DNA of 64,000 nt, from positions 4,402,001 through 4,466,000 of the forward strand of contig OY751491.1 of the NCBI GenBank assembly GCA_963565915.1, written 5' to 3'. The stretch's first letter is position 1. Every line of letters starts with the position of its first letter. This DNA is from Entoloma clypeatum. Its lineage: Eukaryota; Basidiomycota; Agaricomycetes; Agaricales; Entolomataceae. The notes under the pieces were generated by a model, which saw nothing but the letters and a program-made list of their open reading frames with translations, had not been told where the DNA came from and did no database searches. Positions 801 through 31,179 of the stretch are shown here, in pieces. Both the position numbers and the translations under genes were made by a program.

Positions 801-1277
801 TGTTAAGAACTGATCGACAAAACGTCGGAGCTACGTCGGACGCGTCGGAAGGTCGGAAGGTCGGAGCGCGTGCAACGTAGGGGCAAGGACTTGGCTTCAA
901 CTTGTGTGTTGCGCCCTCGCTAATACGTTGGTGTCCTTATTTCGGAGGATCGGAGGATCGGAGGTCGGACTCAAGTTAAGAGTCGGAAAGAGGACGGGAG
1001 GTATGATGTCGAATCTAAGTTGATATTCAAACTGAAGCTAATACACGATTCTACATAAGTTTAAATACTATGTCGGAGGACGTGTGGCTTCGTCGGAGTC
1101 GGATAACGAGTGGCTGTCGGAGATTCTTAACATAAGTAAAATGGTCGGATGTAAGTAATGTACGTAGTAACGAGATTCATAACAGTAAGTATGCATAATA
1201 AGTATTAGTCAAAATGTCGGAGGTGTCGGAGGTGTCGGGATTGGTCGGAAATCGTCGGAATGGATCGGAATGTAACA
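801..1277 (-). repeat. Gypsy-1 3' LTR
   Basis: 477 bp, TGTTAAGAAC at its plus-strand left end and ATGTAACA at its right end. On the plus strand I count 20 CGGA tetramers and no TCCG. It contains the same TATA and self-primer block as the other LTR (1023-1067). Its right edge abuts the polypurine tract. Confidence 0.96.
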
Positions 1278-1345
1278 GTATTTCCCCCTTAGGGCCGAAC
1301 CCATGAGGCCTAAGGACCTAGGTGGTCGGTGCGCGTGAACTGTGT

Positions 1346-1367
1346 CATGTGATGCGTTGGTTGAAAA
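1346..1367 (+). promoter_or_regulatory. Conserved block upstream of the antisense gene
   Basis: The stretch around CATGTGATGCGTTGGTTGAA lies 77 bp before the start codon at 1444. A close match (CATGTGACCGTTGGTTGAAA) occurs 65 bp before the antisense start codon in Gypsy-2. Apart from the polypurine tract region and this block, the leaders have diverged, so the block is a candidate promoter or 5' UTR element. The role is inferred. Confidence 0.45.
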
Positions 1368-1443
1368 TACCGTCTGAGTGGTTTTTTCTTCTTGTTCCCC
1401 CATTCTCTTTTCGTTTTAAACTCTTCCGAAAATAAACCTCAAT

Positions 1444-2383
1444 ATGTCGGCATCCGATTTTCAAAAGGAGATGGAGGCGCTGCAGGCTAAGCTCGCGGAG
1501 GTGGAGGCGAAAAAGCGAGCAGCGGAGGAGGAGGCTGCGAGGAAGGCTGAGGAGGAGCGGAGAGCGGAGGAAGAGAGGGCTGCGGAGGAGATGCGGGTAG
1601 CGGAGGAGATGCGTCGGGCGTCGGAGCTGGCGGCTCAGAAAAGGGCCGATGAAGTGGCCGCTGCACAAGGCGCATCGAGCAAGGGGTCGGGGGAGCCGCA
1701 GGCGGAGAAGAAGAAGAAGACGACGAAGAAGAGGAAGGTGGAGGAAGTGTCGGCGATGGTCGGAGAGGGGTCGGGAGTCGGGGTCGGGGTCGGCACCTGT
1801 GATAGGTGCATTGTGAAGGGCGTCGAATGCGAACGCGATGAGTAAGTCCCTCTTTGGTTCGTCTCTTCTGTTTTAACCTTGTGTTTTTAGGAATAAGTCG
1901 TCCTGCAAAGGATGTATCAAAGACAAGAAGAAGTGCGAGGTCGGAGCGTCGGAGGGGAAGTCGGAGGTGAAGCGCACGGTGAAGGTGAAGGGAAAAGGGA
2001 AAGCGACAGAGGTCGGAGGGTCGGAGTCGGAGGTGACGCTGTTGAGCGTCTTGAAGGAGATTTTGGTGGAGACGAGGCAGATCCGAAGACTGCTCTCAGC
2101 AGTTGAAGGAACTGTCAACATTGCATACGTGCCAGAGGAAGTGGAGGAATCGGAGTCGGAGTCGGAGGGATCGGGGAAGTCGGAGGTGAATGAGGAGATA
2201 GAGGAGTTGAGCCTGGAGCAGAGGCTGGTGAAGAAGATCAAGCAAGACATGTTGAATCAGAAGAGGTTGGATATGCCGGAGCAGTCCGACATGGACATAT
2301 CGGACGAGTCGGAGAAGGCGGAGTCGGAGGGGGAGTCGGACAAGGAGGAGGGTCCGTCCAACAAGAAACAACGTACTAAGTAG
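1444..2383 (+). CDS. Antisense accessory protein of Gypsy-1: coiled coil plus split Zn2Cys6-type motif
   Basis: Two exons, 1444-1841 and 1891-2383, with a 49-bp GTAAGT...TTTTAG intron, give a 296-residue protein on the strand opposite gag-pol. Residues 1 to about 85 are rich in Ala, Glu, Lys and Arg and look like a long coiled coil. A basic patch (KKKKTTKKRK) follows. Splicing then joins CDRCIVKGVEC to CKGCIKDKKKC, giving CX2CX6CX8CX2CX6C, the spacing of fungal Zn2Cys6 binuclear clusters. The C-terminal half is acidic and Ser/Glu-rich and ends SNKKQRTK, a possible nuclear signal. The gene is tail-to-tail with pol: its stop is 28 bp from the end of the chromodomain frame. Gypsy-2 carries a homologue in the same place with the same intron position, so this is a conserved part of the element rather than a chance ORF. 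DNA binding is inferred from the cysteine spacing, and the target is unknown. Confidence 0.82.
1842..1890 (+). other. Intron inside the zinc-cluster motif (Gypsy-1 antisense gene)
   Basis: Donor GA|GTAAGT and acceptor TTTTTAG|GAAT, 49 bp, phase 2. Gypsy-2 has the same phase and near-identical edges (GA|GTGAGT, TTTAG|GAAT), between the third and fourth cysteines. Splicing is needed to complete the six-cysteine motif. Confidence 0.8.
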
Positions 2384-2411
2384 ATAGTAATAGTACTTGT
2401 TTTTTCTTGTT

Positions 2412-2573
2412 TCAGAGCGATGTGAGCGGACCCGGTTTGTCGGGATAAGCGGAGTGAAAGTCGGAGACAAGCTCGGGGGCGTTTTCCAATTCATTGGCTG
2501 GTAGCCAAGAGAATTCTTCATCAGTGTTTTCATATCCTAACCAACGGACGAAATATAGTAGCTTGCAGCTACG
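2412..2573 (-). CDS. Chromodomain tail of Gypsy-1 pol, beyond an in-frame UGA
   Basis: The pol frame meets UGA at 2574-2576 and then stays open for 53 codons to a stop at 2412-2414. The open part reads as the core and end of a chromodomain (LLYFVRWLGYE, then EEFSWLPANELE). Family members use this domain to steer integrase to chromatin marked by methylated histone H3. The stop replaces what is probably an Arg codon (CGA or AGA, cf. AGA in Gypsy-2) and is followed by C, the leakiest context for UGA. Either integrase lacks a full chromodomain, or readthrough makes a minor extended form, or the copy is mutated. Confidence 0.75.
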   Translation of the reverse strand, partial: RSCKLLYFVRWLGYENTDEEFSWLPANELENAPELVSDFHSAYPDKPGPLTSL

Positions 2574-5500
2574 TCATCGGTCGATCTTTGAGTCGACTAT
2601 TTCAGCGATCTCGTACTCAAGTTCTCCGTCAATGTCAATCGGAGGAGGCGGAGGTTGGGTCCGATTCGGAATGGTGTTCGGAGTTGCGGGTTCAAGCATG
2701 GAGACGTGGTAGACGGGGTGAACACCGCGGAATGTGTCGGGGAGTCGGAGGGTAAAGGAGTGTGTGCCGGGTTGTGCAATGATCTCGTATGGTCCCAAGT
2801 ATTTTTCTGAGAGTTTCTTGGATGGGCGTGTTGTGCGGAAGAACTGTGCTTTGACGAAAACCTGTTGTCCGACAGAAAATGTCGGAGGTGCGATCCGATT
2901 ATTGTCGGAGGACTTCTGGTAACGTCGTTGAGCGTCGGAGATGGTGGCTTTCAGTTCTTGGTGAAGTTCGTCTAAGTCGGTCACGAAGGATCGGGCTCGG
3001 GAAGAGGCGAGGTCTCGTTCCGGGTGAACAGTAATGTTCGGATGGTAACCCTTGTTAGCAAAGAAGGGAGATATGCCAGTGGTAGCACTAGGTGCGTTGT
3101 TGTACGCGAACTCCGCAATCGGAAGGAGAGCGGACCAGTTGTCCTGTTGGTAGTTGCAGAATATCCGCAAGTACTGTTCGAGGGTCTGGTTAGTGCGTTC
3201 GGTTTGGCCATCGCCTTCGGGGTGGTAACCGGAGGTGAAGTGGAGGGTCATGTTTAGAGCCTTTCCGAGAGATCGGAAGAATCGGGAGACGAATTCGGGG
3301 CCGCGGTCGGAGGTGATATGTTCGGGGACGCCGTGTTTAGAGAAGACATGCAATACGAAGAGTACGGCAAGGTCTTCGGAGGTGCAGTGAATTGTTGTCG
3401 GAATGAAAATACTTTGTTTCGTTAATCGGTCAACGATAACGAGGATTGAATCAAAGTTGTCGGAGGTCGGAAGGGTCTCGATGAAATCCATTGAGATAGA
3501 ATTCCAAGGACGTTCGGGGATCGGAAGCTGTTTGAGTAGGCCGTAAGGCTTGTGTCTTTGTGGCTTCGATCGCATGCAAGTGGTACATGACTTGCAATAG
3601 TGTTTAACGAAATCTCGTATTCCGGGCCAGGTATAATCACGCTGAATGAGACTGAGTGTCTTGTTCTGACCTGGGTGTCCAGCAAGCATATGATCGTGCT
3701 TGTGCTGTAGGACTCGGAGTCGGAGGTCGTCGGAGTCGGGAACGTATATCCGATCGTCATGTCGGAGGAAACCATCGGGGTCGAGAGACCAGCGGGGTTT
3801 AGGATTTTTAGAAAGAGTGTCGTAAAGAGTGTCGGAAGGGAGTGCTGTGAGTATGTCGTGGTGAAGCTTTTCTGTGTCCATGATAATGGTTGCACGGAGG
3901 ACGGGCTCAAGGAGTTGAGTCGCGCGAACTGAAGCGGAGAGCTGTTCTTGCGAAAAGACTGGTCGGAGGTTGGTCGGATTGATGTCGACGTAGTCGCTAT
4001 TTCCCCCTTTAGGATAGACATCCCAACGTCTAGTTAGAGAGTCAGGTTTAGTTCCCAATCGGCCGGGGCGGAATCGGATGACGAGGTTGAACTGAGAAAG
4101 GTATTCCGACCATCGGACTTGTCGGCATGAAAGAACTTTGGTGGTGGCAAAATACTCGAGATTTTTGTGGTCGGTAACGACGTCAATCGGAGTACCGGAG
4201 CCTTCGAGGTAATGGCGCCAAATTTTAAACGCTTCGTAGATGGCAAGAAGTTCCTTATCGTGGGTGTCATAGTTTACTTCGGGGGCCGTGAAGGTGCGGG
4301 AATGGAATGCGACGGGGTGGACTTCATTGTCGGAGGTGACTATCGACAGAATAGCCGCTAGGGCATAGTCGGATGCGTCGGTTTCGACAATTATCGGAGA
4401 GTCGGGGATCCAGTGTGTCAGGATCGGAGCGGTGGTAAATGCCTTTTTCAGGTCATTAAAAGCGGTTCGAGCGTCGTCGGAGAACAGCCAAGTGGCATGT
4501 TTCCTGGTTAAACGAGTGAGTGGAATAGTGATGTTGGAATAGAATGGAATGAAACGTCGGTAAAAGTTTGCAAAACCTAAAAAGGACTGGACGTCCTTCA
4601 CTCTGCGCGGTTCAGGCCAATCCTGAATAATCTTGACTTTCGCTTCCGACATTTTGAGTCCGTCGGGAGAAAGGATAAATCCAAGGTATTCCACAGTTTC
4701 GGCAGAGAAATCGCACTTGTCGGCGTGGGTGTAAAGACCATGTTGTCGGAGTCGTCGGAGGACTTCTCGGACATGTTTTTTGTGTTCCTCGGGGTTGTCG
4801 GAGTAGATCAGGATGTCGTCGAGGTAAACGGTAACGCAGTTGTCCAGAAGGTCGGAGAAGATGTCGTTCATAAAACGTTGAAAGGCTGCAGGTGCGTTAG
4901 ACAATCCGAATGGCATGACTAACCATTCAAATGATCCATAGCGAGTGCGGAATGCAGTTTTCCATTCATCACCTTCAGCGATGCGGACTAGGTGGTATGT
5001 GTGTCGGAGGTCTATGGTGGTATAAACGCGTGCTTTTCCGGCAGTGGCTAAGAGGTCGGAGATGAGCGGAAGTGGGTATCGGTCCTTCTTCGTGATTTTG
5101 TTCAGGCCTCGGTAGTCGACGCATAGTCGGAGTGATCCATCTTTCTTTCGGACGAAGAGGATCGGAGCGCCGTGAGGTGAACTAGAAGGTTTGATGAAAC
5201 CGATATTGAGGTGCTCATCGATGAAGTCTCGGAGGGATCCAAGTTCGGATTGCGAGAGTGAGTACATCGGACCAATCGGAGGGGAAGTACCTTCCTCCAA
5301 ATTGATTTTGAGGTCGTACGGTCGGTGGGGTGCAAGGGTGTCGGCTTTTTTCTTACTGAATACATCAGCAAAATCGTGGTATTCCTCGGGTATGCCAGAG
5401 AGGTCGGGAGCGTCGTCGGAGACAGACGCGGAATTGGCGGAGATGTCGGAGAGGTGAACGCGGAAAGCGTATGCCCCAGGAGCTTTACATGCATGGAGAT

Positions 5501-6122
5501 ATGCGGCTGCATTGACCATGGTAATCTGTGGCGGGTCGGAGGTGTTCGGAGTGAGCGGATCGGAGGTGCCCATCGGAGAGGGCGGACACTGCAGAGGTGG
5601 CGGAGCTGCCTCAGCAGTCGACGTCGGAGTCGGACTCGGAGTGTCGGGTAACGTAGAACGGAATAAGATACTGCCCAATACCCAGTCAATCAACGGATTG
5701 TAGCGGGTGAGCCAGTTGTGTCCTAGAACCAAATTACAAGACGAATCGAGGGTTGTCACGTAAAATGCGACGGTCAGAAGTTCACCGGAAGGAAATCGGA
5801 GAGGAAGATCGATAGATTGTGTGATATACGTATTTGAAGAACCGTCAAAAAGTTTCAAAACCATAGGTGAAGGAATCGGAGTCGGAGATAAGTTTAAAGA
5901 AGAAATAAATCTGGTATCTGCGAAGCAATGTGTAGAACCAGAATCAATAAGAGTCTTTATCGGAAGAGAATCGGAAAAGGTCGGAGATATCAAATCAATA
6001 CATAGAGAGTTCGGATTTGAGAGAGCGGACGCATTGAGTCGGAGGGTTTCCAAAGGTGCACGAAAGGAGTCAACGCAATCCCCAGTACGTGCTGGAATCT
6101 GAGGACTGCTTACTATTTTTTT
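2574..6122 (-). CDS. pol: Gypsy-1 Pol: protease, reverse transcriptase, RNase H, integrase
   Basis: An open frame from the gag overlap at 6122 to UGA at 2574. No good ATG lies near its start, so it is probably made as Gag-Pol by -1 frameshifting. Counting from 6053, visible motifs are the protease DSGSTHCFAD (about residue 40), reverse transcriptase with YLDDILIYS (about 410), RNase H beginning VETDASDYA (about 556), an HHCC integrase finger (HDHMLAGHPG ... CKSCTTC, about 790-822), the integrase acidic residues in MDFIETLP, SDRGPEF and HPEGDGQTERTNQ, and the first strand of a chromodomain (YEIAEIVDSKID). Catalytic residues of RT and integrase are present. The protein is sized like fungal chromovirus Pol. 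It copies the element's RNA to DNA and inserts it. The sense strand is unusually rich in TCCG. Confidence 0.95.
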   Translation of the reverse strand, partial: KKIVSSPQIPARTGDCVDSFRAPLETLRLNASALSNPNSLCIDLISPTFSDSLPIKTLIDSGSTHCFADTRFISSLNLSPTPIPSPMVLKLFDGSSNTYITQSIDLPLRFPSGELLTVAFYVTTLDSSCNLVLGHNWLTRYNPLIDWVLGSILFRSTLPDTPSPTPTSTAEAAPPPLQCPPSPMGTSDPLTPNTSDPPQITMVNAAAYLHACKAPGAYAFRVHLSDISANSASVSDDAPDLSGIPEEYHDFADVFSKKKADTLAPHRPYDLKINLEEGTSPPIGPMYSLSQSELGSLRDFIDEHLNIGFIKPSSSPHGAPILFVRKKDGSLRLCVDYRGLNKITKKDRYPLPLISDLLATAGKARVYTTIDLRHTYHLVRIAEGDEWKTAFRTRYGSFEWLVMPFGLSNAPAAFQRFMNDIFSDLLDNCVTVYLDDILIYSDNPEEHKKHVREVLRRLRQHGLYTHADKCDFSAETVEYLGFILSPDGLKMSEAKVKIIQDWPEPRRVKDVQSFLGFANFYRRFIPFYSNITIPLTRLTRKHATWLFSDDARTAFNDLKKAFTTAPILTHWIPDSPIIVETDASDYALAAILSIVTSDNEVHPVAFHSRTFTAPEVNYDTHDKELLAIYEAFKIWRHYLEGSGTPIDVVTDHKNLEYFATTKVLSCRQVRWSEYLSQFNLVIRFRPGRLGTKPDSLTRRWDVYPKGGNSDYVDINPTNLRPVFSQEQLSASVRATQLLEPVLRATIIMDTEKLHHDILTALPSDTLYDTLSKNPKPRWSLDPDGFLRHDDRIYVPDSDDLRLRVLQHKHDHMLAGHPGQNKTLSLIQRDYTWPGIRDFVKHYCKSCTTCMRSKPQRHKPYGLLKQLPIPERPWNSISMDFIETLPTSDNFDSILVIVDRLTKQSIFIPTTIHCTSEDLAVLFVLHVFSKHGVPEHITSDRGPEFVSRFFRSLGKALNMTLHFTSGYHPEGDGQTERTNQTLEQYLRIFCNYQQDNWSALLPIAEFAYNNAPSATTGISPFFANKGYHPNITVHPERDLASSRARSFVTDLDELHQELKATISDAQRRYQKSSDNNRIAPPTFSVGQQVFVKAQFFRTTRPSKKLSEKYLGPYEIIAQPGTHSFTLRLPDTFRGVHPVYHVSMLEPATPNTIPNRTQPPPPPIDIDGELEYEIAEIVDSKIDR
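6113..6122 (-). promoter_or_regulatory. Putative -1 ribosomal frameshift site at the gag-pol junction
   Basis: The gag frame ends TCA AAA AAA TAG. The A-AAA-AAA heptamer (6122-6116) is a classical X-XXY-YYZ slip sequence directly before the stop. Moving back one base leads into the pol frame, which is open from here to the protease. Gypsy-2 has the identical GAG TCA AAA AAA TAG at 54935-54950 in the same role. I did not evaluate a downstream pseudoknot. Confidence 0.75.
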
Positions 6123-7339
6123 GACTCGGTCGTCTTCTCCGATTTGTCCTCAGCTTGGGCCGCGCGGGCTTTTGCTTTGGCGTTAGAAGACGATTTCTTC
6201 GAGCAGTCGGAAGCCCGATGACCAACGTTGCCGCAAAACATGCATAAATTATTGTCAAATCGTCGTTGGCGTTCTTGGGGAGTTAATTTCCCATCTTTGC
6301 CAAGTTTGTCGGAGAGGGCGGATTTCGGAGAGGTGGATGACGATTTTTGTTGTTGTTGCGAGTTGGGTTTAGACGATGAGGAGTTGTTGTTGGAGGATGA
6401 TGAAGCGGGGGTCTGTTTTTTGTCGGATTTGTCGGATTTGTCGGATTTCGGAGTAGATTTGTCGGAGGAGCGCGATTTCTCGCGTTGACGTTCCCAGTAG
6501 CGAGCATCAATGTTATGGGCCATTACTTTCAACTCGGCGAGAGTTTTTGGTTTGGGAAAAGTCCCCAAAACGTCCTTGATGCGTTCCGCTAAACCGGTAT
6601 AGTACCGATATCGGAGCGCGCCATCATCCCACTGCGTGCGAGCGGAAAGACGTTTGAAGTCCACGTTGTAACGTAGGATCTTCTGATTGTCGCGCATCCG
6701 AAGGTGATCCAGGCTATCCTCTGCTTCTCCGGTCGGATCGATAGGTCCGAATTCGGATCGGAGGATGTGCACAAAGGCGGACCAGTCGTCCAACCAGACA
6801 GAGTCATCGTCGGACTCTCCCAAGAGGGTGGGCTCAAACCATTCGAGCGTGGTTCCTCGGAGGTACGACAGAGCGAAACTGACTTTGTTATCATCGTCGT
6901 CAAAAGCGGGGTTGTTTCGGAAATATAGCGTGCATTGTGCAAGGAAACTGGTGAGTTTCCGAGAGTCGGAACCGTCAAAAGTGTCGGGTTCCTTCGATTT
7001 CTTTTTCGGAGTTTTCGGAGTCTCTCTACGTCGGAGCTCCTGCGTCATAAGCATAATTGCTTCAGCGAGGTTTGGAGTTTGCTCGCGACGGAAAGGATTG
7101 TTATCGTCAAAAGGAGAGGTCGGTGATTTAAAAGGATGGAATTCTTCAGGAATCGGAGGTCCTTGTGTCTGAGGTGTTCGGAGATGAGGTGTCGGAGATA
7201 TGGGGTCAGGTTTGGGTGCAGATTCTTCTGCGGGAATATCTTGGAACGTATGTAGAAATGTCGCCCTGGTGTCCTGCAGGTTTGAAGCTTCCGCTGCGGC
7301 TGCTGCTGCGCGGGAGTTCTGTGTGTTGCGGGCTGCCAT
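6113..7339 (-). CDS. gag: Gypsy-1 Gag
   Basis: 408 residues from ATG at 7339 to TAG at 6113. The first 85 or so residues are Pro/Ala/Thr-rich. A capsid-like helical part follows (KSKEPDTFDGSDSRKLTSFL, then the stretch around RGTTLEWFEP and a conserved YYTGLAERIKD). Then comes a low-complexity Lys/Ser/Gln linker and one CCHC zinc knuckle near residue 370 (CMFCGNVGHRASDC, CX2CX4HX4C). This is the usual design of Ty3/Gypsy Gag, which forms the cytoplasmic particle that packages element RNA. The start lies 46 bp downstream of the 5' LTR. Confidence 0.93.
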   Translation of the reverse strand: MAARNTQNSRAAAAAAEASNLQDTRATFLHTFQDIPAEESAPKPDPISPTPHLRTPQTQGPPIPEEFHPFKSPTSPFDDNNPFRREQTPNLAEAIMLMTQELRRRETPKTPKKKSKEPDTFDGSDSRKLTSFLAQCTLYFRNNPAFDDDDNKVSFALSYLRGTTLEWFEPTLLGESDDDSVWLDDWSAFVHILRSEFGPIDPTGEAEDSLDHLRMRDNQKILRYNVDFKRLSARTQWDDGALRYRYYTGLAERIKDVLGTFPKPKTLAELKVMAHNIDARYWERQREKSRSSDKSTPKSDKSDKSDKKQTPASSSSNNNSSSSKPNSQQQQKSSSTSPKSALSDKLGKDGKLTPQERQRRFDNNLCMFCGNVGHRASDCSKKSSSNAKAKARAAQAEDKSEKTTESKK

Positions 7340-7369
7340 AACTGGAATTTGAAATACGGATAAGTGAGT

Positions 7370-7385
7370 GGCAGTTTGAATATAC
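7370..7385 (-). other. Gypsy-1 primer binding site (self-priming type)
   Basis: Directly inside the 5' LTR the sense strand reads GTATATTCAAACTGCC. Twelve of these bases (ATATTCAAACTG) are the reverse complement of CAGTTTGAATAT in the LTR (sense strand, 7619-7608), placed where transcription should begin. I see no match to a tRNA 3' end. This is the arrangement known from Tf1, where the RNA folds back and its own 5' end primes. Confidence 0.75.
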
Positions 7386-7862
7386 TGTTAAGAACTGATC
7401 GACAAAACGTCGGAGCTACGTCGGACGCGTCGGAAGGTCGGAAGGTCGGAGCGCGTGCAACGTAGGGGCAAGGACTTGGCTTCAACTTGTGTGTTGCGCC
7501 CTCGCTAATACGTTGGTGTCCTTATTTCGGAGGATCGGAGGATCGGAGGTCGGACTCAAGTTAAGAGTCGGAAAGAGGACGGGAGGTATGATGTCGAATC
7601 TAAGTTGATATTCAAACTGAAGCTAATACACGATTCTACATAAGTTTAAATACTATGTCGGAGGACGTGTGGCTTCGTCGGAGTCGGATAACGAGTGGCT
7701 GTCGGAGATTCTTAACATAAGTAAAATGGTCGGATGTAAGTAATGTACGTAGTAACGAGATTCATAACAGTAAGTATGCATAATAAGTATTAGTCAAAAT
7801 GTCGGAGGTGTCGGAGGTGTCGGGATTGGTCGGAAATCGTCGGAATGGATCGGAATGTAACA
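7386..7862 (-). repeat. Gypsy-1 5' LTR
   Basis: 477 bp, identical by eye to 801-1277. It carries the promoter for the genomic transcript: TATTTAAAC on the sense strand (7652-7644), followed 33 nt later by the self-primer sequence. No polyadenylation signal was assigned. Confidence 0.96.
7608..7652 (-). promoter_or_regulatory. TATA box and self-primer/start region of Gypsy-1
   Basis: The sense TATTTAAAC starts at 7652 and CAGTTTGAATAT starts at 7619, 33 nt later. Gypsy-2 keeps the same 33-nt step from TATAAATAG to AGTTCAAATAT although the sequences differ, with paired changes in each binding site. A start about 30 nt after the TATA box would put the primer at the extreme 5' end of the RNA. 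Confidence 0.65.
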
Positions 7863-14439: not shown

Positions 14440-14943
14440 TCAATGGGGATGAGAGAATACCGTGACGTGGCCACTCACGCACGGGCAAAAAAAGCCGGTA
14501 TGTAGACTCGGAACCGCCGGCGTCATCATCGGACACGAGAAAACGAGACTCGGGGAAGATGCATCGTGTATGCTGTCGCTGGTGGGTCTTGCCAACAAAT
14601 CGACAATTTCTTGTGCGTTCGATCGTTCGGCACTATCGTATCTAGATCTCACTCCGAGTTGTTGGCGATTTGGACTCGCAAGAAGTACATGAGATGTAAG
14701 TCTTCCAAGCAAAAGGGACCTAGGGACTCGGACTCGTACGGAAGTGGCAGGCGTCGTGATGTGTTGCAGTGGTTGCACCTGGCGCTTTCCTGGTTGCTGG
14801 ACCTTCAATGCCGACCAACACCTATACCCCTCGTCAACTTCCCGTAGTCGACTCAAGACAGGAGTCACGGCATGCAATGCTTCCTTGTACGCGGCGTCTG
14901 TACTCTGCGTTGCTGCGGCGAACTTGATGTGTTTGGTGGCCAT
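14440..14943 (-). CDS. Unknown protein, arm 1 copy (gene C)
   Basis: Open for 167 codons. The first 50 or so (MATKHIKFAAATQ, then KEALHAVTPVLSRL and a WSALKVQQPG block) match arm 2 at 30778-30942 well. Conservation weakens after that but returns at LLARPTSDS. Helical and soluble by eye, with no known domain. The real gene probably has an intron after QQPG. Recognised only as a duplicated coding-like block. Confidence 0.4.
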   Translation of the reverse strand: MATKHIKFAAATQSTDAAYKEALHAVTPVLSRLREVDEGYRCWSALKVQQPGKRQVQPLQHITTPATSVRVRVPRSLLLGRLTSHVLLASPNRQQLGVRSRYDSAERSNAQEIVDLLARPTSDSIHDASSPSLVFSCPMMTPAVPSLHTGFFCPCVSGHVTVFSHPH

Positions 14944-15139
14944 CGGACAGTGACACCCGGCATCGCCGCGTCGGCCTCTGCGACGGCCGAAACCATGAGA
15001 GTCTGAGGAATTATGGCAGTTTCATCTGTCATGCTGCGGAGGGGCTGGGCTTAACTGTTATCCCGATTCCCAACTGCTCTACAGAGTAATCACTCGTTCT
15101 TCCGAGACTATCAGAGTCACTCTCGACGTTTGTTGAAAT

Positions 15140-15754
15140 TCAGCAAAGGAATATGGATGCGCCAAGGTCAAGGTCAAGGTCAAGAAAGGATACAAACACA
15201 ACGAATCGTACAACCCCTGACAAACACACCCACCCACCAACACAAAACCCTCCCACGAACAAACTCCAGTCTGACGACGTTCTCCCTGGCTTGTCGCTCT
15301 CCCCCTTCGCCTCCTCCATCCAAGTCTCCCTGGGGGTAGACAGAGGTGCCTCACCGAACCCGAACCCGATACACGCCCCAACCCTCTCGACACCCGCCAC
15401 GACAGAGCTCGCGATGCGCCCGCGGAGTGGCCCCAGGAGGGAGAGCGAGAAGAAGAGGAGGGAGGGGAGGTGCAGCGGGTCAAATGCGAGCGTCGGTCTG
15501 GGCGGCGCGTGCTCGTGCTCGTGTTGGTCGTGGTGTGACGTGGCAGCCGGTGGATTGATATTTCTGGTTTTTCTCGCCGTGGCGACGAAGCGGATGATGG
15601 CGAAATCGCTGGATAAGATGGTGGAAGAGGCCAGTGCGGAGGCAGGGCGGGGAGGAAGGGCGGAAGGAGGAGAGCCTGAGGGTAGGTCGGTGGTGGTGAG
15701 ACAGGTGTGAGTGGGGAAGAACGACGATGGGGATGTCCGACCCAAGGGCGTCAT
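15140..15754 (-). pseudogene. Membrane-protein-like gene B, arm 1 copy, internally deleted
   Basis: A 204-codon frame. The C-terminal 110 residues match arm 2 closely: DPLHLPSLLFFSLSLLGPLR, a Gly-rich VGACIGFGFGEA, and a hydrophobic stretch beginning WSLFVGGFCVGGW. That gives two or three possible membrane segments. Relative to arm 2 about 300 bp are missing upstream, where arm 2 encodes a WDKEKWEAEW block, and the frame before the junction differs. I take it as a broken copy of an uncharacterised basidiomycete membrane protein. Confidence 0.5.
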
Positions 15755-16254
15755 GGGGAATGGGGCTGATGATGATATTATTTAGTTAACGTATCCGGTT
15801 GAAGGGAGTGCAACTTACTTGGTGGATTGAGAAGGATGAGGGCGGTGTAGCGGTGTGAATGATGCAGAGACGAGGGTCGCGACGACGGGCGATGGACGGT
15901 GCGATGGATCCAACACGTCTGAGGATGATCGATTTCAGTCGTGTCAGTAACACATCCGCCTGTCTTGGTGGTCATCATAAACACACGTCCAAAAACAAGG
16001 AAACACGTACATCGGTATCGCGTATCCACCCAGATCCACGACCTCCACGTTCCTTGTCGGCTCAAACTTCTCCAATCAGAACCCATCCTGGTGCTCCACC
16101 CGGTCTGTCGACGCACGCAGCACTCTCACGCCTCCGTACTCCGTCTCCTCCCAACCTCCCACGTCAACCACGTCCTCGTTGTCCGACAAGAGCTCAGTAA
16201 AGAAGTGTTCATCGTCTGCAGCCTTGTTCGCGAGTACCAACAGTCTCAATTCAC

Positions 16255-16593
16255 CTAGGGTCTTCCCATGCAGCGTCGGCCGACGCAGAGCAGCCGAGAG
16301 CGCCAACGACGGGATGATGAGACCTTGGTCTCCCAGGCCGTGATCAGAGTGCGGTCCGAAGGCGGTTGCGGCGGGCTCGCTGCTGCCGAGCTGAAGAAGA
16401 ATGACGACGAGATGGACGGGAGAGAGGACACCGAGGCGGACGACGGGCTGTACTGCGATGAAGAGTGCGGGGATGGCGGAGCGGAAACGCTCGACGGTGC
16501 CATGTTGGGCGAGTCTGGGGTGTGCTCATGGTGCTGGTGGGCGGAGCGGACAGTGGACACGCTGATCACGCTCGTCGACCTGCTGGCGTCCAT
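16255..16593 (-). pseudogene. Gene A, arm 1 copy
   Basis: A Ser/Pro-rich frame from ATG 16593 (or 16503) that ends at 16255. An overlapping second frame (16306-16076) reads like a globular segment (TLHGKTLGELRLLVLANKAA, then FFTELLSDNEDVVDVGGWEE). The two are probably exons or a frameshifted single gene that continued into gene B. Arm 2 has the same two frames with a 10-bp deletion in the second. No domain recognised. Confidence 0.4.
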
Positions 16594-18602: not shown

Positions 18603-18911
18603 TGTTGAAACTTTTCCCATCACGTAGATTAGATTAGATTAGATTACATCACGTGACCTTTACATATCTTCGTTACATACTTGTTTGGTTGGTACAAACA
18701 GTAGTACAGTATATAAGACCAGGAAACTGTCAATATCATAAAGTTGTCTCTTGACTCTTAACCAGCTCCATCGCTCTTACCAGCCTCAACCGCTCTCACC
18801 AGCCTTACCCCTCCAAACCATGTAAGTAATCATAGCGGTATCGTAGAGTACTTCCACTGTAGCTATGTTGCTCAGTACACCTGTGGCTAGCGCCCAGGTG
18901 GAACTTCAACA
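18603..18911 (+). repeat. Copia-1 5' LTR
   Basis: Contains five tandem GATTA-type units (AGATTAGATTAGATTAGATT) near its left end and a TATA box TATATAAG at 18710-18717. A GTAAGT-like donor occurs in CCATGTAAGT near 18820, so leader splicing is possible. Confidence 0.92.
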
Positions 18912-18925
18912 GGTTATGGGCCCCG
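18912..18925 (+). other. Copia-1 primer binding site
   Basis: GGTTATGGGCCCCG immediately follows the LTR. The reverse complement GGGCCCATAACC corresponds to the anticodon stem-loop of initiator tRNA-Met, the half-tRNA primer mode known for Drosophila copia and Ty5. Confidence 0.8.
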
Positions 18926-19273
18926 GATAGCAAAGGGACTTGGGAAACGCTGGCAACAGCGAGTACCTGCCCACTCTACCCTGGTTGGCAAAGAACCGAT
19001 CGAAAGATCTAGGTTCTGAGTCATACTTCTTCACATATGAACCTGGGAAACGTCATTACGACAAGTACCTGTCATGAGACGTCCCTAAGGGGATTGACCT
19101 AGTACACTCCATGTGGAAACATTGATCGCACCTTATACGTTTTTGACATATAAAGGGTTTTCCCATGACCGCTATTCCTGAAGGGAATATGTCATAAGGA
19201 ATCATTTAATTGTTTTCTCGAATCATATTCATAACACATCACTGATTGAGAACCCTTTTTAGATTCATTCACA

Positions 19274-22200
19274 ATGTCTACCTCTCGTTCTGCCCTCGAC
19301 ACAATCACTGCCTTTGACGGCATCGACTACCGGAGCTGGGCCGAGAAAATGAAGTCTTACCTCCTCCATCAAGGAGTCTGGCGCCTTGTTTCTGGCGACA
19401 TCCCCCGCCCTGTCATCGCCGACTTCACCACCACAGTCTCCACCCCTGGGGCCACTGCTACTGCTCCCCCTGTGCTGGCCACCACGGTCGACCAGCCCGG
19501 CTTCCGCAAAGAAGAAAAAGCCTGGATCAGGGACGACGACGTAGCTCTTGGGGCGATACGCCTGAAGGTCTCCAAGGCGATCAGATGCCACATCAAGGAC
19601 GCCACTTCCTCAAAAGACGCCTGGAAGTCATTAAAGGATGCCTACTCCAAGGTATCCCCGGCTGTCATCTTCGGCGACTTCAAGGCCGCCGCCACCTACA
19701 AGCTCTCTGGACGCGACCCCGTCCCTGAAATTGAACGCTTGGGGTCTCTTTTCGCTCGGCTCGCCGATTCGAACTTTGATGTCCCCGATCTAATGCAGGC
19801 AATGATCCTGGCAAATGCAATTCCCGACGCCTGGTCGTCACTCTCCACCGCCCTTTTCCAGGTCTACGACGCCGACGATTTCACCTACAAAGCCGTCGCC
19901 GAAAGCATCATCTCGGAGTACAGGCGCAAGTATGCGGTCGGGTCCACTCGTGCGTCCAATGAGCAGGCCCGGAAAATTTCCGGGACAAAGCGAAAGGGGC
20001 AGGACCCCAAATGGGAAAGGCAGCAGAAGCCGAGTACCTTGCAGAACGATGCTGATGAACAGCCTAACTCGGCCGACCCAAGTACCGCTTCTGAGAAGAA
20101 GAAGGGAAAGGGACGTTGGCGCAATCAGAAGAAAAGCGCTAACAATGCGGACAACACGTCCGACCATGTGGAAGAAACGGTTGAGTTTGTTGCTCCCGCC
20201 ATCCACTTCCCTCCTCTTCCGCCACCATCCTTCACCACCGTCACTGGCCGCGGGAAAACGACAAGTACCGCACAGCCCGATTCCGCAAAGATGCAGTCGC
20301 TCCTGCAACGAATGAACCCCCCTCCGTCACAGTACACCGGGCTTCCTTCTGGAAAACCATCCGTGTGGAAAAAGAACGACCATGTCTGCAAACTCGCGCG
20401 CGGCATTGGTGCTCGCCCCTCAGGATCGAATCTTCGTATCCTAGACACCATCATTCCTGACATCGACGAAAGGCCGGCTAAACAGCGTCACGTAGCCCCG
20501 TCGATAGAAGAATCACTGAAAATGATGGACATAGACCATCAAAGCGAGCGGATGGGGCCGGAACAATTCGAAGATGGGCTGATCAAACTTGACGGTTCGT
20601 CACATTCTTCTCTCAAACTTGACCAAATGGGAAATGCTAATAATCACGCACAGACGTTTGAATATATATTAGCTAGTACCGATGCAGGTAGTATAGATCT
20701 CTTTAGCGATGATCTGTACAAAAAATATACCAAACATTTTGCGTCCTGCACACACTGCAAAGAGAAAGAACGCGCTCAGTGGATCTTAGATTCCGGCGCA
20801 TCATTACACTTTACCCATGAGTTCAAAGACTTCGCGTATTACAGGCCTCTCAAGGCTAAGCGATTTGTCCAAACAGCTGCAAAGGGAAAGAAACTGGAAA
20901 TTCTCGGAGTTGGGGCCGTTCCAGTACGGCATACCCTGAATGGGGAAACTAAAACCCATCTCCTACGACCGGTATTTTATATTCCGGATATGGACACACG
21001 TCTATTGTCCCTAGGCGTCTTCCTTAACCATGGTTACAAAGTTGATGGAATGCGCGGAGAAATTAATATCTCTAAAGGGCTGAACAAAATACAGTTTTCG
21101 CCTCATTTCATCGGACAAACCATTTACTGGTTAGACACTGAAATACGCTATGACCAAATCCACGCGATCTCTAGCGAAATCACTGTTGAAACCTGGCATA
21201 AACGTCTTGGCCACCCAAATGACCAGGCGCTTAATAAAATTCCCACTAGTACCAAAGGAGTACCCAGGACGTTAGTACGTGAGAAATCACAGGAAAGCTG
21301 CACGGGGTGCCTCAAAGGGAAAATGCCGAATCAATCTTATCCTAACTCGATGACAAGGGCTGTCAAACCCTTTGATTTGATCCATTCGGATTTGAAGCAG
21401 ATATCCACGGCATCGTACCATAAGTACAAATATTTCCTTACCTTTTTGGACGATTTTTCATCCCATGTCTGGGTTGTCTTGCTTAGGAAGAAGTCAGGCG
21501 CCATCACGGCGCTGAAACAATTCCTTGCGATGATCCAGAATCAATTTGCCGCTACCCCTAAAAAGTGGCGGGTTGATGGAGGTGGAGAATTTGACGAATA
21601 CAAGGATGTACTTGCCGATCATGGAATTCTGATCGATGTCACGCTCCCATATCAGCACCAGCAGAATGGTAGAGCAGAAAGGATCAATCGGACACTATGG
21701 GAAAAATCTCAGGCATTGCGCTTCGATGCATGCTTACCGCCCATGTGGTGGGAATTCTGTTTGGAACACGCAGCATTTCTCTACAACAGAACCCCCATGC
21801 AGCGTCTTGAATGGAAAACCCCTTACTCCAGGGTGACCAATGAGATCCCCGACATGTCTAGTGTCAGAGTATTCGGATGTCAGGCATATGTATATATCCC
21901 AAAGGAGAAACGTAGGAACTCCCTGGAATCAAGATCCCGATTGATGATTTATCTCGGATCGAAACCAGGGGTCAAAGGATACCGCTTCATGGATCCTGAG
22001 ACCAACACGATTTTCATGGGCGGGAAAGCTATCTTTGATGGAAGCAAGTACCCTAGATGCCACATTGACCCGTTGCCAGAAAACCACCCAGAAATGGAAA
22101 ACCCAGAGCCGGCTGATGAGTTTGAGGATCTCATTCCCGGCAGCAACGATGACGATAGTCACAACGAAACACCTCATATCCCAGTTCCCATTGAACAGGA

Positions 22201-22378
22201 TCAACCTGAATCAGACAACGAACTGCCTGCCAGTGAGCCTGATGACGAACCGCGAGTACCCACTCCGGAACCCGAGCAAGTACCAGATCAACCGATCAGG
22301 GAACGACGAGTTCGGAAGATGCCAGGAAGCATCTATGGGGAAGACACTCCAGCATCTGATCTTGAAAAATTAGATTGA
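19274..22378 (+). CDS. gag-pol: Copia-1 Gag-protease-integrase
   Basis: 1034 residues ending at UGA 22376-22378. Gag helices fill about residues 1-300 (GVWRLVSGDIPRP near 40). No CCHC knuckle was seen, unusual for the family. The protease motif LDSGASLHF lies near residue 505. The integrase zinc region follows (HKRLGHPN ... CTGCLKGK), then the integrase core with DDFSSHVWVVLL, DGGGEFDEY and QQNGRAERINRTL, and a Pro/Asp/Glu-rich linker. The ATG at 19274 starts an alignable Gag. The same frame continues after the UGA into reverse transcriptase, so the stop splits one polyprotein. Confidence 0.93.
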   Translation: MSTSRSALDTITAFDGIDYRSWAEKMKSYLLHQGVWRLVSGDIPRPVIADFTTTVSTPGATATAPPVLATTVDQPGFRKEEKAWIRDDDVALGAIRLKVSKAIRCHIKDATSSKDAWKSLKDAYSKVSPAVIFGDFKAAATYKLSGRDPVPEIERLGSLFARLADSNFDVPDLMQAMILANAIPDAWSSLSTALFQVYDADDFTYKAVAESIISEYRRKYAVGSTRASNEQARKISGTKRKGQDPKWERQQKPSTLQNDADEQPNSADPSTASEKKKGKGRWRNQKKSANNADNTSDHVEETVEFVAPAIHFPPLPPPSFTTVTGRGKTTSTAQPDSAKMQSLLQRMNPPPSQYTGLPSGKPSVWKKNDHVCKLARGIGARPSGSNLRILDTIIPDIDERPAKQRHVAPSIEESLKMMDIDHQSERMGPEQFEDGLIKLDGSSHSSLKLDQMGNANNHAQTFEYILASTDAGSIDLFSDDLYKKYTKHFASCTHCKEKERAQWILDSGASLHFTHEFKDFAYYRPLKAKRFVQTAAKGKKLEILGVGAVPVRHTLNGETKTHLLRPVFYIPDMDTRLLSLGVFLNHGYKVDGMRGEINISKGLNKIQFSPHFIGQTIYWLDTEIRYDQIHAISSEITVETWHKRLGHPNDQALNKIPTSTKGVPRTLVREKSQESCTGCLKGKMPNQSYPNSMTRAVKPFDLIHSDLKQISTASYHKYKYFLTFLDDFSSHVWVVLLRKKSGAITALKQFLAMIQNQFAATPKKWRVDGGGEFDEYKDVLADHGILIDVTLPYQHQQNGRAERINRTLWEKSQALRFDACLPPMWWEFCLEHAAFLYNRTPMQRLEWKTPYSRVTNEIPDMSSVRVFGCQAYVYIPKEKRRNSLESRSRLMIYLGSKPGVKGYRFMDPETNTIFMGGKAIFDGSKYPRCHIDPLPENHPEMENPEPADEFEDLIPGSNDDDSHNETPHIPVPIEQDQPESDNELPASEPDDEPRVPTPEPEQVPDQPIRERRVRKMPGSIYGEDTPASDLEKLD

Positions 22379-24001
22379 AGACGGAGATTGGGCGGTCAAA
22401 CGGCATGGATGAATGACCTCCTGATGGAGGCAATATCAGTCCATGTTGGCATCGTTGAAATGTCCCATAAAGACATATACCCTCTTCCAAATAAAGAAGA
22501 CTGGTATGCGGCTGAACGTAAAGAGCTAGACATGCTCAAACGCCGCGGGGTGATCACGGAGCTAGTACCCCTGCCTGCAGGAAGGAAAGCTCTAAGGAAC
22601 AAATGGGTTTACAACGAAAAGTCCGACGGGCGCCTGAAAGCACGCCTCGTCGCAAAAGGATTTTCACAAGTAGAAGGGATCGACTTTGATCAGATCTTCT
22701 CACCAGTCGTAAGATATGAAACCGTCCGACTAATACTGGCATTGACAGCCCTTGAAGGGTGGTTCATGACTCTTTTGGACGTCTCATCAGCCTTCCTCTA
22801 TGGAACGCTCCGTGAAGTCATCTATATGCGACAGCCTGAGGGCTACATAGTAAAAGGGAAAGAACACCTCGTGTACCAACTATTCAAAGCTCTATATGGA
22901 CTTAAGCAGGCCGCATTAGCCTGGTGGAGGGAACTTGATTCCTCCATGAAAAAGCTCGGCTTTGTCCGGCTTCACTCCGATGCGGGAGTATTCATTCACA
23001 AAAGTACCAACGGGGAAATTGTAATTGCCGTCATCTATGTCGACGACTCTGCTTTTCTCGGCACAAACCAGGAATATACGCTAGAAAAGAAGAAGGCCTT
23101 CATGACAACATGGGAATGTAGGGACCTAGGTCACCTAGTGCCCGATGGGGAACCAAAGGAATTTCTCTCAATCCAAATAAGGCAACGTGGGAAGAGGATC
23201 TTCATTGATCAAGTACCTTACCTTGAGAAAATTCTGGCACGCATGGGGATGAGCGAATCTAATGCCACCCATACCCCACTCCCTACGGGCTACAAACCCA
23301 TGGCGTCCGAAGATGAACCCAATGCGGAACTCCGATCTAAGTACCAATCCATCATCGGATCACTCCTATATCTGATGATCGGAACGAGGCCTGACATCTG
23401 CTTTGCTGTAATCAAAATGTCCCAATTTTCCGCAAATCCCACCAAACGTCATTTAGAAGTGGCTAGGGATATTTGCAGATATTTGAAGGCAACAAAAGAT
23501 TATGCGATCATGTATGATGGGGACTCAGGGAAAGGGATCTATGCATTCACAGACTCCGACTGGGCGTCAGATGAAAACACAAGGAGGTCTACCACCGGCT
23601 TCTTCATATCACTGGCGTCTGGAGCAATAACATGGGTATCATCGGCGCAAAAGACCATCGCCCTCTCTTCTACAGAAGCAGAGTATATGGCGCTATCAGA
23701 TTGCAGTCGCGCAGCAACATGGCTGAGAAGCATGCTTGCCGAACTTGGAATGCAGATCGGATCAGTACCGATCTACGGAGATAACAACGGCTCCGTCTTT
23801 ATCGCATCCAACCCTGTAACTGAGAAGCGATCCAAGCACATTGACGTGCGATTCCACTTCGTCAGAGAAAAAGTCTCCGAAGGAATTATTACGGTCGAAT
23901 TCATTGAAGGAGTGAATAACCCTGCAGACCTTTTGACTAAGAATCTGGGGAAAATCCTCTTTTCCAAGTTTATCCCGTACTTCGGATTGATAAAGAACTA
24001 A
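22379..24001 (+). CDS. pol: Copia-1 reverse transcriptase-RNase H
   Basis: In frame with the upstream ORF, separated only by the UGA at 22376. It holds the Copia RT opening (NKWVYNEKSDGRLKARLVAK, SQVEGIDFDQIFSPV), the catalytic YVDD (IYVDDSAFLG), and RNase H with TDSDWASDENTRRSTTGF, SSTEAEYMAL and HIDVRFHFVRE. All expected catalytic residues appear present. Without readthrough or reversal of the stop, this half is not made as a fusion. Confidence 0.93.
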   Translation, partial: RRRLGGQTAWMNDLLMEAISVHVGIVEMSHKDIYPLPNKEDWYAAERKELDMLKRRGVITELVPLPAGRKALRNKWVYNEKSDGRLKARLVAKGFSQVEGIDFDQIFSPVVRYETVRLILALTALEGWFMTLLDVSSAFLYGTLREVIYMRQPEGYIVKGKEHLVYQLFKALYGLKQAALAWWRELDSSMKKLGFVRLHSDAGVFIHKSTNGEIVIAVIYVDDSAFLGTNQEYTLEKKKAFMTTWECRDLGHLVPDGEPKEFLSIQIRQRGKRIFIDQVPYLEKILARMGMSESNATHTPLPTGYKPMASEDEPNAELRSKYQSIIGSLLYLMIGTRPDICFAVIKMSQFSANPTKRHLEVARDICRYLKATKDYAIMYDGDSGKGIYAFTDSDWASDENTRRSTTGFFISLASGAITWVSSAQKTIALSSTEAEYMALSDCSRAATWLRSMLAELGMQIGSVPIYGDNNGSVFIASNPVTEKRSKHIDVRFHFVREKVSEGIITVEFIEGVNNPADLLTKNLGKILFSKFIPYFGLIKN

Positions 24002-24074
24002 GCGAAACAGAGTACCTATATATATGTGGGAAAAAGTAAGATGTATTTAGAAGTATGTACTAAATATGGGGGGG

Positions 24075-24384
24075 TGTTGAAACTTTTCCCATCACGTAGA
24101 TTAGATTAGATTAGATTACATCACGTGACCTTTACATATCTTCGTTACATACTTGTTTGGTTGGTACAAACAGTAGTACGGTATATAAGACCAGGAAACT
24201 GTCAATATCATCAAGTTGTCTCTTGACTCTTAACCGCCTCCATCGCTCTTACCAGCCTCAACCGCTCTCACCAGCCTCACCCTCTCCAACCTATGTAAGT
24301 GGTCAGAACGGTATCGTAGAGTACTTCCACTGTAGCCGGTTGCTTCAGTACACTTGCGGCTAGCGCCCAGGTGGAACTTCAACA
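24075..24384 (+). repeat. Copia-1 3' LTR
   Basis: 310 bp, preceded by ATATGGGGGGG. Differs from the 5' LTR in the second half (for example CCTATGTAAGTGG against CCATGTAAGTAA). In that half the 5' LTR is closer to the solo LTR at 58517 than to this partner. Confidence 0.92.
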
Positions 24385-28879: not shown

Positions 28880-28948
28880 TGGCGTTATCTTATCTGTATA
28901 TTGTTTATTCATGTCCAACACCATGAGCACACCTCCGACTCGCCCAAC

Positions 28949-29360
28949 ATGGCACCCTCGAGTGGTTCAGCTCCGCCATCCCCGCACTCTTCATCGCAGT
29001 ACAGCACGTCGTCCGCCTCGGTGTCCTCTCTCCTGTCCGTCTCGTCGTCATTGTTCTTCAGCTCGGCAGCAGCGAGCCCGCCGCAACCGCCTTCGGACCA
29101 CACTCTGATCACGGCCTGGGAGACCAAGGTCTCATCATCCCGTCGTTGGCGCTCTCGGCTGCTCTGCGTCGGCCGACGCTGCATGGGAAGACCCTAGGTG
29201 AATTGAGACTGTCGGTACTCGCGAACAAGGCTGCAGAAGATGAACAGAGCTCTTGTCGGACAACGAGGACGTGGTTGACGTGGGAGCTTGGGAGGAGACG
29301 GAGTACGGTGGCGTGAGAGTGCTGCGTGCGTCGACAGACTGGGTGGAGCACCAGGATGGT
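28949..29360 (+). pseudogene. Gene A, arm 2 copy
   Basis: The Ser/Pro-rich frame from ATG 28949 ends at 29197. The second frame (LHGKTLGELRLSVLANKAAE) is broken by a 10-bp deletion after about 29245, compared with arm 1 where FFTELLSDNED follows. The start region of arm 1 is missing too. Non-functional as it stands. Confidence 0.45.
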
Positions 29361-29415
29361 ACGTGTTTCCTTGTTTTTGGACGTGTGTTTATGATAACCA
29401 CCAAGATAGGCGGAT

Positions 29416-30570: not shown

Positions 30571-30777
30571 AATTCAACAAACGTCGAGAGTGACTCTGAT
30601 AGTCTCGGAAGAACGAGTGATTACTCTGTAGAGCAGTTGGGAATCGGGATAACAGTTAAGCCCAGCCCCTCCGCAGCATGACAGATGAAACTGCTATAAT
30701 TCCTCAGACTCTCATGGTTTCGACCGTCGCAGAGGCCGACGCGGCGATGCCGGGTGTCACTGTCCGACTCGGACTCG

Positions 30778-31179
30778 ATGGCCACCGACTTACACATCAA
30801 GTTTGCTGCAGCAATGCAGAGTTCAGACACCACGTACAAGGAAGCATTGCATGCCGTGACTCCTGTCCTGAGTCGACTATGGGAAGTTGAAGAGGAGTAT
30901 GGGGATTGGTCGGCAGTGAAGGTCCAGCAACCAGGAACTTGAAAGCGCCAGGTGCAACCACTGCAACACGTCACGACGCCTGCCACTTCCGAGCTAGTCC
31001 CTAGGTCCCTTTTGCTTGGAATTACTACTTACATCCCACGTCCTTCTCAGGCATGCGAGTCTCGTGCCACTGACAGTGAGATTTATGATGGTGCTGAACG
31101 TCGGAACGCACAAGGAATTGTCAAGTTGTTGGCAAGACCGACCAGCGACAGCTCGGAGGCCCACGGATACTACAGGTGA
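30778..31179 (+). CDS. Unknown protein, arm 2 copy (gene C)
   Basis: First frame 30778-30942 (MATDLHIKFAAAMQ, KEALHAVTPVLSRL, ending QQPGT). A second block with NAQGIVKLLARPTSDS near 31110-31150 is also shared with arm 1. An intron between them is plausible but its edges are not obvious. No domain known. Confidence 0.35.

Follow-up and report, generated by a model that had tools for sequence, protein, structure and literature searches.

What is the function of a spliced gene that lies inside a retrotransposon and runs antisense to it? The question is raised by a stretch of 64,000 nucleotides (nt) from the basidiomycete Entoloma clypeatum (contig OY751491.1, positions 4,402,001 to 4,466,000; hereafter the window), in which two Ty3/gypsy elements, Gypsy-1 and Gypsy-2, each carry such a gene, opposite to gag-pol and placed between pol and the polypurine tract and 3' long terminal repeat (LTR). 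The original prediction, made from the letters of the window alone, had taken these genes for antisense regulators of the Zn2Cys6 type. Here, the antisense gene is found to be protein-coding and under purifying selection, and we consider it somewhat better than an even chance that it serves two chromovirus families as an accessory gene and encodes a nuclear coiled-coil zinc-cluster regulator that binds the element's own DNA. An antisense, spliced, coding gene in both families was borne out, whereas its action as a regulator is an inference.

Structure and position of the antisense gene

The two genes are made up of the following parts:

1444-1841, plus strand: exon 1 of the Gypsy-1 antisense gene, with coiled coil, basic stretch and first half of the cysteine cluster
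1842-1890, plus strand: its intron, phase 2, GTAAGT...TTTTTAG, which splits the cysteine cluster into halves
1891-2383, plus strand: its exon 2, with second half of the cysteine cluster, basic linker, helix, acidic tail and SNKKQR
1798-1936, plus strand: its six-cysteine cluster CX2CX6CX8CX2CX6C, intron included
59630-60006, minus strand: exon 1 of the Gypsy-2 antisense gene
59580-59629, minus strand: its intron, phase 2, 50 nt
58988-59579, minus strand: its exon 2

The product of the Gypsy-1 gene is 296 amino acids long, with the six-cysteine spacing listed above, and that of the Gypsy-2 gene is 322 amino acids long, with the spacing CX2CX6CX11CX2CX6C. The coordinates, intron and cysteine spacing of the two-exon gene in Gypsy-1 were confirmed as predicted, and so were the corresponding place of the Gypsy-2 homologue (58988-60006), its cysteine spacing, and the features common to both genes, i.e., the phase 2 intron, the MSA start and the SNKKQR end. 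Two further blocks, on the LTR side of the gene, are common to the two elements:

1278-1310, plus strand: polypurine-tract side, conserved block (CTTAGGGCCGAACC and its neighbours), common with Gypsy-2 by sequence comparison
1355-1367, plus strand: CGTTGGTTGAAAA block upstream of the antisense gene, common with Gypsy-2 (60083-60071), candidate promoter element

Transcription would start from a promoter of the gene's own adjoining the 3' LTR and run against gag-pol, with splicing to follow. Because the RNA of the element is the other strand, the intron would not be spliceable from it, and would thus persist through each round of copying.

An antisense gene at such a place is already known, although the original prediction knew of no established fungal example: brtn of the Boty-like retrotransposons of Botrytis cinerea was reportedly described by Zhao et al. 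2011 (Virology 417:248). As far as the available accounts go, Boty carries brtn (PMC7264820, PMC8365987, PMC4227169) in the same arrangement as Gypsy-1 and Gypsy-2, i.e., as an extra gene of a fungal chromodomain Ty3/gypsy element, antisense between pol and the 3' LTR. These accounts name a form brtn-106, and their passages on the gene mention no zinc cluster, intron or modules; the comparison is one of descriptions only. In plants, antisense genes at the same place are described for Grande (gene23), RIRE2, Retand (the TRP28 open reading frame, ORF) and PvRetro13 (PMC7264820, PMC11963269). According to the excerpts available, these genes of the aORF-3R class are like the gene of Gypsy-1 and Gypsy-2 in position, orientation, presence in most copies and a suspected nuclear or DNA-binding role; they differ in their domains (TRP28, Smc), with no zinc cluster or intron mentioned there, and Retand is not a chromovirus. 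Moreover, gene23 is described as having a promoter of its own (PMC7264820, PMC11963269), whereas the gene of Gypsy-1 and Gypsy-2 has a conserved upstream block only. A review, in its section on these genes, states that their functions are not determined, and mentions proposals of nuclear roles, import of the pre-integration complex and double-stranded RNA (dsRNA) roles (PMC7264820). What appears to be new here is the zinc cluster, the intron, the module exchange and the motif arrays: the open literature searched gave no zinc-cluster product, intron, module exchange or target-like array for such an antisense gene, and among titles and abstracts of the open-licence literature no basidiomycete antisense gene, Zn2Cys6 retrotransposon gene or permuted zinc cluster was recognised. 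The accessible part of PMC2864245 makes no mention of antisense or additional ORFs.

Conservation, selection and module exchange among genomic copies

Copies were sought in the E. clypeatum genome (60.1 Mb, 20 contigs), where a DNA search gave 43 matches to the Gypsy-1 gene and 41 to the Gypsy-2 gene, and protein searches gave many more. Places of pol and of the antisense gene were paired from the lists of matches, leaving aside 60 of 150 pol rows (71-76% identity, other families) as well as exon-1 and partial duplicate rows, and the counts from this pairing are those among the matches listed. Of the Gypsy-1 pol copies, 97 of 112 have the antisense gene beside them, as do 80 of 90 for Gypsy-2, which makes 177 of 202 for the two families, and each of the 177 genes located is antisense, as the original prediction expected of homologues in other elements. 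The gene match lies 260-1267 nt past the pol match (median 412 nt for Gypsy-1 and 675 nt for Gypsy-2), and in 6 of the 25 pol copies lacking a gene match, a comparison of coordinates places the C-terminal 17-mer where the gene would be expected. By its position, its orientation, its presence in most copies of the family and its conservation as a protein, the antisense gene fits the aORF-3R class.

The pols of Gypsy-1 and Gypsy-2 are 62-74% identical, whereas the antisense proteins are 38% identical by the aligner's count, a difference which suggests faster evolution of the antisense gene than of pol. The same divergence bears on the idea that a host gene was recently captured and is hitch-hiking with the element. 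The host genome does contain 18 Zn2Cys6 domain matches that pass the cut-off, and an intron is a usual feature of a host gene; however, a recent capture is hard to reconcile with the presence of the gene in two families so far apart. No host copy was picked out among the matches, although one may be present among the 47 of 144 for Gypsy-1 and 35 of 115 for Gypsy-2 that have no listed pol beside them. We regard host capture as highly improbable.

The original statement that chromoviruses of this lineage carry the gene holds for most copies of two families, and possibly claims too much. A third pol family shares 80-82% identity with Gypsy-1 pol, and among the matches listed none of its 38 copies has a gene match beside it, which could reflect loss, replacement, or a gene too unlike for detection. 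A 14-mer adjoining the polypurine tract occurs at 225 places in the genome, and the antisense gene lies downstream on the same strand at 81 of the 100 listed; on the contigs covered by that list, the 14-mer is near 1 of 13 third-family copies, at 2.5 kb. Many copies of the third family have open frames of 1246 amino acids (an example is at G000:C5:1403840-1404538).

Individual copies were read through the splice. Among 40 genes of the Gypsy-1 type, 33 are open after splicing, GT..AG is present at the aligned splice sites in 39 and the six-cysteine spacing is kept in 36. The seven copies that are not open (L016, L019, L020, L021, L022, L023 and L060) are disrupted by frameshifts, stops or deletions, or have lost their end. 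L024 has no AG at the aligned acceptor but a TTTTAG 6 nt earlier. The length of the exons modulo 3 is constant in 37 of 40 copies for exon 1, which is rich in repeats of 3n and so limits this argument, and in 39 of 40 for exon 2, whereas intron lengths range over 48-57 nt irrespective of frame. Of seven Gypsy-2 genes (the window copy and L061-L066), five are open to the SNKKQR end; L063 is frameshifted close to the end, and L065 carries an early stop and lacks the acceptor AG. One further antisense gene, of the B type described below (L067, G000:C1:3323490-3324410), has an in-frame deletion that took the cysteine cluster together with the intron.

The ratio of non-synonymous to synonymous substitution rates (dN/dS), which had been put forward as a check on the gene, was below 1 in four of five pairs: 0.19 for L006-L024, a pair of the Gypsy-1 type (p 2.7e-10); 0.26 for the Gypsy-2 window copy and L061 (p 5.9e-6); 0.46 for L006-L025, an A-type and a B-type copy (p 2.5e-4); and 0.49 for L062-L064 (p 0.04). 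The fifth pair, L061-L063, gave 1.03 and contains the copy with the late frameshift. Among the intact pairs, the three with the greatest divergence (L006-L024, L006-L025 and window-L061) have dN/dS of at least 0.76 in the other frames, which also contain stops; the exception is the gag-pol strand's mirror frame, at 0.26 in L006-L024 and 0.32 in window-L061, which has stops and shares third positions with the gene. The close pair L062-L064 says little, since three other frames also gave 0.52-0.60.

That there is no gene, and the frame is open by chance, was considered since a low-complexity, GA-rich strand favours long frames. When substitutions were placed at random, the frame of the A-B pair stayed open in 290 of 20000 trials and that of L006-L024 in 2690 of 20000; together with the frame comparison, this leaves chance a negligible probability. 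It is also very unlikely that the antisense transcript itself has the effect, through dsRNA or silencing, and that the ORF is a by-product. Other elements are known to be transcribed in antisense, with dsRNA roles proposed in the review excerpt (PMC7264820), and gene and pol end close to each other, with 28 nt between their stop codons in Gypsy-1 and 44 nt in Gypsy-2. However, dN/dS below 1, frame-keeping exons and a conserved cysteine pattern need a protein, and the coding parts, as drawn, do not overlap with pol. The antisense gene is protein-coding and under purifying selection.

Within exon 2, one stretch of the gene comes in exchangeable versions:

1973-2307, plus strand: exchangeable module, A type in the window copy (coordinates carried over from L006 positions 548-882)

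A-type and B-type copies are 97-100% identical in the LTR, the upstream block, exon 1 and pol, and 65-79% identical within this bounded stretch. Between L006 and L025, all but 7 of the substitutions listed fall at 548-882 from the ATG; in the module (amino acids 167-278) dS is 0.92 and dN 0.34, i.e., a dN/dS of 0.37, compared to a dS of 0.017 and a dN of 0.005 in the rest of the gene. L024 is the mirror case, with a dS of 0.06 in the module and 0.36 elsewhere. These contrasts in dS inside and outside the module show that modules have been exchanged between backbones, presumably by template switching during reverse transcription, and the ratio of 0.37 shows that they were kept under constraint. 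The module starts directly after the cysteine cluster, the position at which, in the descriptions available of Zn2Cys6 proteins, a dimerisation helix follows the cluster; by analogy, exchangeable versions of the helix could keep dimer partners apart.

The zinc cluster and its relatives

The domain order of the protein is coiled coil, basic stretch, six-cysteine cluster, basic linker, helix and acidic tail, where coil and helix were assigned by sequence and, for the relative P0003, also by a predicted model. An alignment search of 5.8 billion proteins returned the relative P0001 (E 1.2e-4), and with P0001 added to the query six further relatives were returned at E 5.5e-15 or better, with the same domain order where complete. 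P0001-P0007 come from metagenomes and other sources and read without an intron. Invariant in all nine aligned proteins, i.e., the seven relatives and the products of both genes, are the six cysteines, a lysine between the last two cysteines, and the basic stretch K..V..K.K. Residues 112-215 of the Gypsy-1 protein as sole query gave no protein match, whereas the alignment queries did find relatives. No relatives were found in viral contigs or prokaryote genome contigs, no match to P0003 in phages or to the Gypsy-1 protein in plasmids, and no match to P0006 in the E. clypeatum genome.

Zn2Cys6 proteins follow the spacing rule CX2CX6CX5-12CX2CX6C, and both genes are within this range. AlphaFold2 modelling of P0003 with six relatives gave a predicted local distance difference test (pLDDT) score of about 80-86 for the cluster within a poor whole model (predicted template modelling score, pTM, 0.28). 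In a structural comparison of this model, 10 of the 13 matches listed are zinc-cluster proteins, on residues 160-286, with low Z and, in several cases, a large root-mean-square deviation; they include Pho7, GAL4, PPR1, Leu3, PUT3, AlcR and the structure 1cld, which we take to be LAC9. The overlay covers 37 residues at 2.0 Å with GAL4 (1aw6) and 33 residues at 1.8 Å with 1cld; Foldseek alone gave nothing significant for the P0003 model. Sequence matches of the Gypsy-1 domain in the PDB are GAL4 or PPR1 in five of five cases, in native order at E 1.7-8.1, and the Gypsy-2 domain had no PDB sequence match. By Pfam, no other transcription-factor domain is present in the Gypsy-1 protein.

Three observations count against membership in the known family. 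In native order, the best score to Pfam PF00172 (Zn_clus) among the nine proteins is 17.8 bits, below the cut-off of 21. The part of the native domain that scores best is aligned to the wrong half of Zn_clus in eight of nine proteins, with no match for P0006. Furthermore, the basic residues are in the second half of the cluster (IKDKKKC, QRLKRSC) and not in the first, as Zn2Cys6 requires. When the halves were exchanged in a test string, Zn_clus was covered in one stretch in nine of nine proteins and the score rose in eight: from 11.7 to 19.8 bits for Gypsy-1, from 17.2 to 22.3 for Gypsy-2 and from 17.3 to 23.0 for P0003, of which only Gypsy-2 and P0003 pass the cut-off; the score of P0007 dropped from 17.8 to 16.5 bits. 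Exchanging the halves of GAL4 itself lowers its score from 48 to 38. The seven P proteins are kin, and the nine proteins are not nine independent tests.

From its sequence and the predicted model of P0003, the protein resembles, and probably works like, a zinc-cluster DNA-binding protein. Since it scores below the cut-off and has swapped halves, we liken it to the zinc-cluster family and do not file it in PF00172. The term Zn2Cys6-type in the original prediction is thus apt for the spacing and for the predicted domain of P0003, which overlays GAL4, and is inexact for a cluster whose halves are swapped and whose native score is below the Pfam cut-off. Compared to fungal Zn2Cys6 (GAL4-type) factors, the protein is alike in spacing, basic residues, a helix after the cluster and an acidic tail, with a weak overlay of the fold predicted for P0003, and differs in its swapped halves, its score to PF00172 and in being borne by a retrotransposon. 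A half-swapped cluster would add an uncommon variant to a familiar DNA-binding fold of fungi.

Motif arrays and the proposed role of the protein

The elements in which a target of the protein might lie have the following anatomy:

801-7862, minus strand: Gypsy-1, chromodomain Ty3/gypsy element, by LTRs and domain matches
801-1277, minus strand: Gypsy-1 3' LTR, 477 nt
7386-7862, minus strand: Gypsy-1 5' LTR, with 16 TCCGAC in gag-pol orientation and 0 in the other
2412-6053, minus strand: Gypsy-1 pol, stop codon at 2412-2414
6113-7339, minus strand: Gypsy-1 gag with zinc knuckle (zf-CCHC 19.1 bits, cut-off 20.8)
53304-60672, plus strand: Gypsy-2, with LTRs 53304-53645 and 60138-60672 and target duplication CTTCT

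The two Gypsy-1 LTRs are identical at all 477 positions, with TATTA as the target duplication. Pfam recognised gag, protease, reverse transcriptase, RNase H, integrase and SH3 domains. In the window copy, pol has a premature stop within the chromodomain and its reading frame ends at 2574; the Chromo match past this stop scores 25.4 bits (cut-off 25.1). Judged by its sequence, with reverse transcriptase, RNase H and integrase in this order and a C-terminal chromodomain, Gypsy-1 is a chromovirus. The Gypsy-2 LTRs are 342 and 535 nt long, with 19 substitutions in 342 aligned positions, and stops break both gag and pol. Its pol is split near 58540-58829, in the chromodomain, by a stretch resembling the LTR of a copia-type element (18603-24374), and Chromo in the interrupted piece scores 21.4 bits against the same cut-off.

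Both elements are crowded with a short word in one orientation. Read in gag-pol sense, Gypsy-1 contains TCCGAC, or GTCGGA on the opposite strand, 58 times where 5.5 are expected, and one LTR contains it 16 times where 0.7 are expected, neither count being reached in 300 shuffles; in the opposite orientation the word occurs 4 times inside Gypsy-1. Gypsy-1 pol has 32, in all three frames, compared to 7.9 when codons were permuted among synonyms, a count reached in 0 of 1000 permutations, and a purely codon-based origin of the motif was dropped on this result; for Gypsy-2 pol, the observed count was reached in 11 of 1000 permutations. The first 5.2 kb of Gypsy-2 contain 45 TCCGA (8.7 expected) and 43 TCCGC (6.9 expected). 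In gag-pol orientation, TCCG[AC] has a density of 41 per kb in the LTR, 20 in gag and 22 in pol, and TCCGAC in 35.9 kb of other window sequence occurs at 0.11 and 0.19 per kb on the two strands. No TCCG[AC] in this orientation is present in the upstream block (169 nt) or intron (49 nt) of the Gypsy-1 gene, both of which are short stretches. Inside the antisense gene, the motif consists mostly of in-frame Ser-Glu codons, in modest excess or none, and protection of the motif CpGs among copies was not clearly seen.

An array on one strand would suit an RNA-reading accessory protein that binds UCCGAC words in the gag-pol RNA for packaging, export or protection, and does not act on DNA. The bias of the motif over the whole transcript and in all codon frames fits this, as does the copia-type element, which has no such gene and shows the same pattern with another word. 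However, the six-cysteine zinc-cluster spacing and the predicted fold of the relative point to DNA, and gag has a zinc knuckle of its own. VANDAL elements, by comparison, are DNA transposons. The protein VANC21 of the Arabidopsis element VANDAL21 is described as binding, on DNA, a motif arrayed densely in one orientation (PMC5735166), and strand bias was consequently dropped as an argument against a DNA reader. We judge the RNA-reading alternative to be quite unlikely.

For the DNA-binding regulator that we favour, the product would be a nuclear, coiled-coil zinc-cluster protein that acts on the copies of its own element. Its probable targets are the TCCGA/TCGGA sites, which contain CGG and are dense in the LTR and body; binding there would set or defend transcription of the element, and the exchangeable helix after the cluster could keep dimer partners apart. 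TCCGAC carries CGG on its other strand, and the accounts available describe Zn2Cys6 proteins as usually recognising CGG triplets in pairs, with the site of Pho7 starting TCG(G/C)(A/T). The copia-type element argues against a simple link of gene and motif: its own word, AGTACC, occurs 17 times in sense and 0 in antisense orientation (0.8 expected), and it has no room for an antisense gene. Words specific to a family and in one orientation are possibly a wider phenomenon.

The basic, nuclear-type stretches and the zinc cluster would equally fit a helper of integration or nuclear entry, which would accompany the pre-integration complex and guide it through contacts with DNA or chromatin. The chromodomain is the usual targeting part of chromoviruses, and pol already has one; a helper would also leave the gene's own strand, the upstream block and the motif arrays unexplained. 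We consider this alternative unlikely, although the nuclear roles and pre-integration complex import raised for plant antisense ORFs in the review excerpt are in its favour (PMC7264820).

The gene is possibly used by the element for its own control or protection. The parallel with VANC, as described in the part of the source at hand, extends to a fast-evolving protein encoded by the element and a short, family-specific motif in dense one-orientation arrays, whereas the VANC motifs are mainly non-coding and those of Gypsy-1 and Gypsy-2 are also in gag and pol (PMC5735166). By this analogy, the antisense gene might be the sequence-reading half of a self-recognition system, in which a half-swapped zinc-cluster protein on TCCGA arrays, written by selection into the LTR and, against the constraint of coding, into gag and pol, would keep its own family unsilenced or in check, and exchangeable dimerisation modules would split the family into non-mixing circuits reading the same DNA; we put this forward tentatively, as an unlikely extension of the regulator. 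HBZ of human T-cell leukaemia virus type 1 (HTLV-1) is antisense and encoded near the 3' LTR as well, and is the basic leucine zipper (bZIP) protein of an animal retrovirus, nuclear in location according to the accounts available.

If the DNA-binding regulator is real, element-encoded DNA-binding self-regulation would extend to fungal retrotransposons. The system offers a testable protein, a candidate target that recurs throughout the element, numerous copies that are nearly identical and an A/B module exchange provided by nature, and it could turn the role of antisense retrotransposon genes, described as not determined, into a binding assay. Elsewhere in the window, 14787-16537 and 28915-30937 form long inverted repeats, with five pairs of arms 90-97% complementary and 12-16 kb apart.
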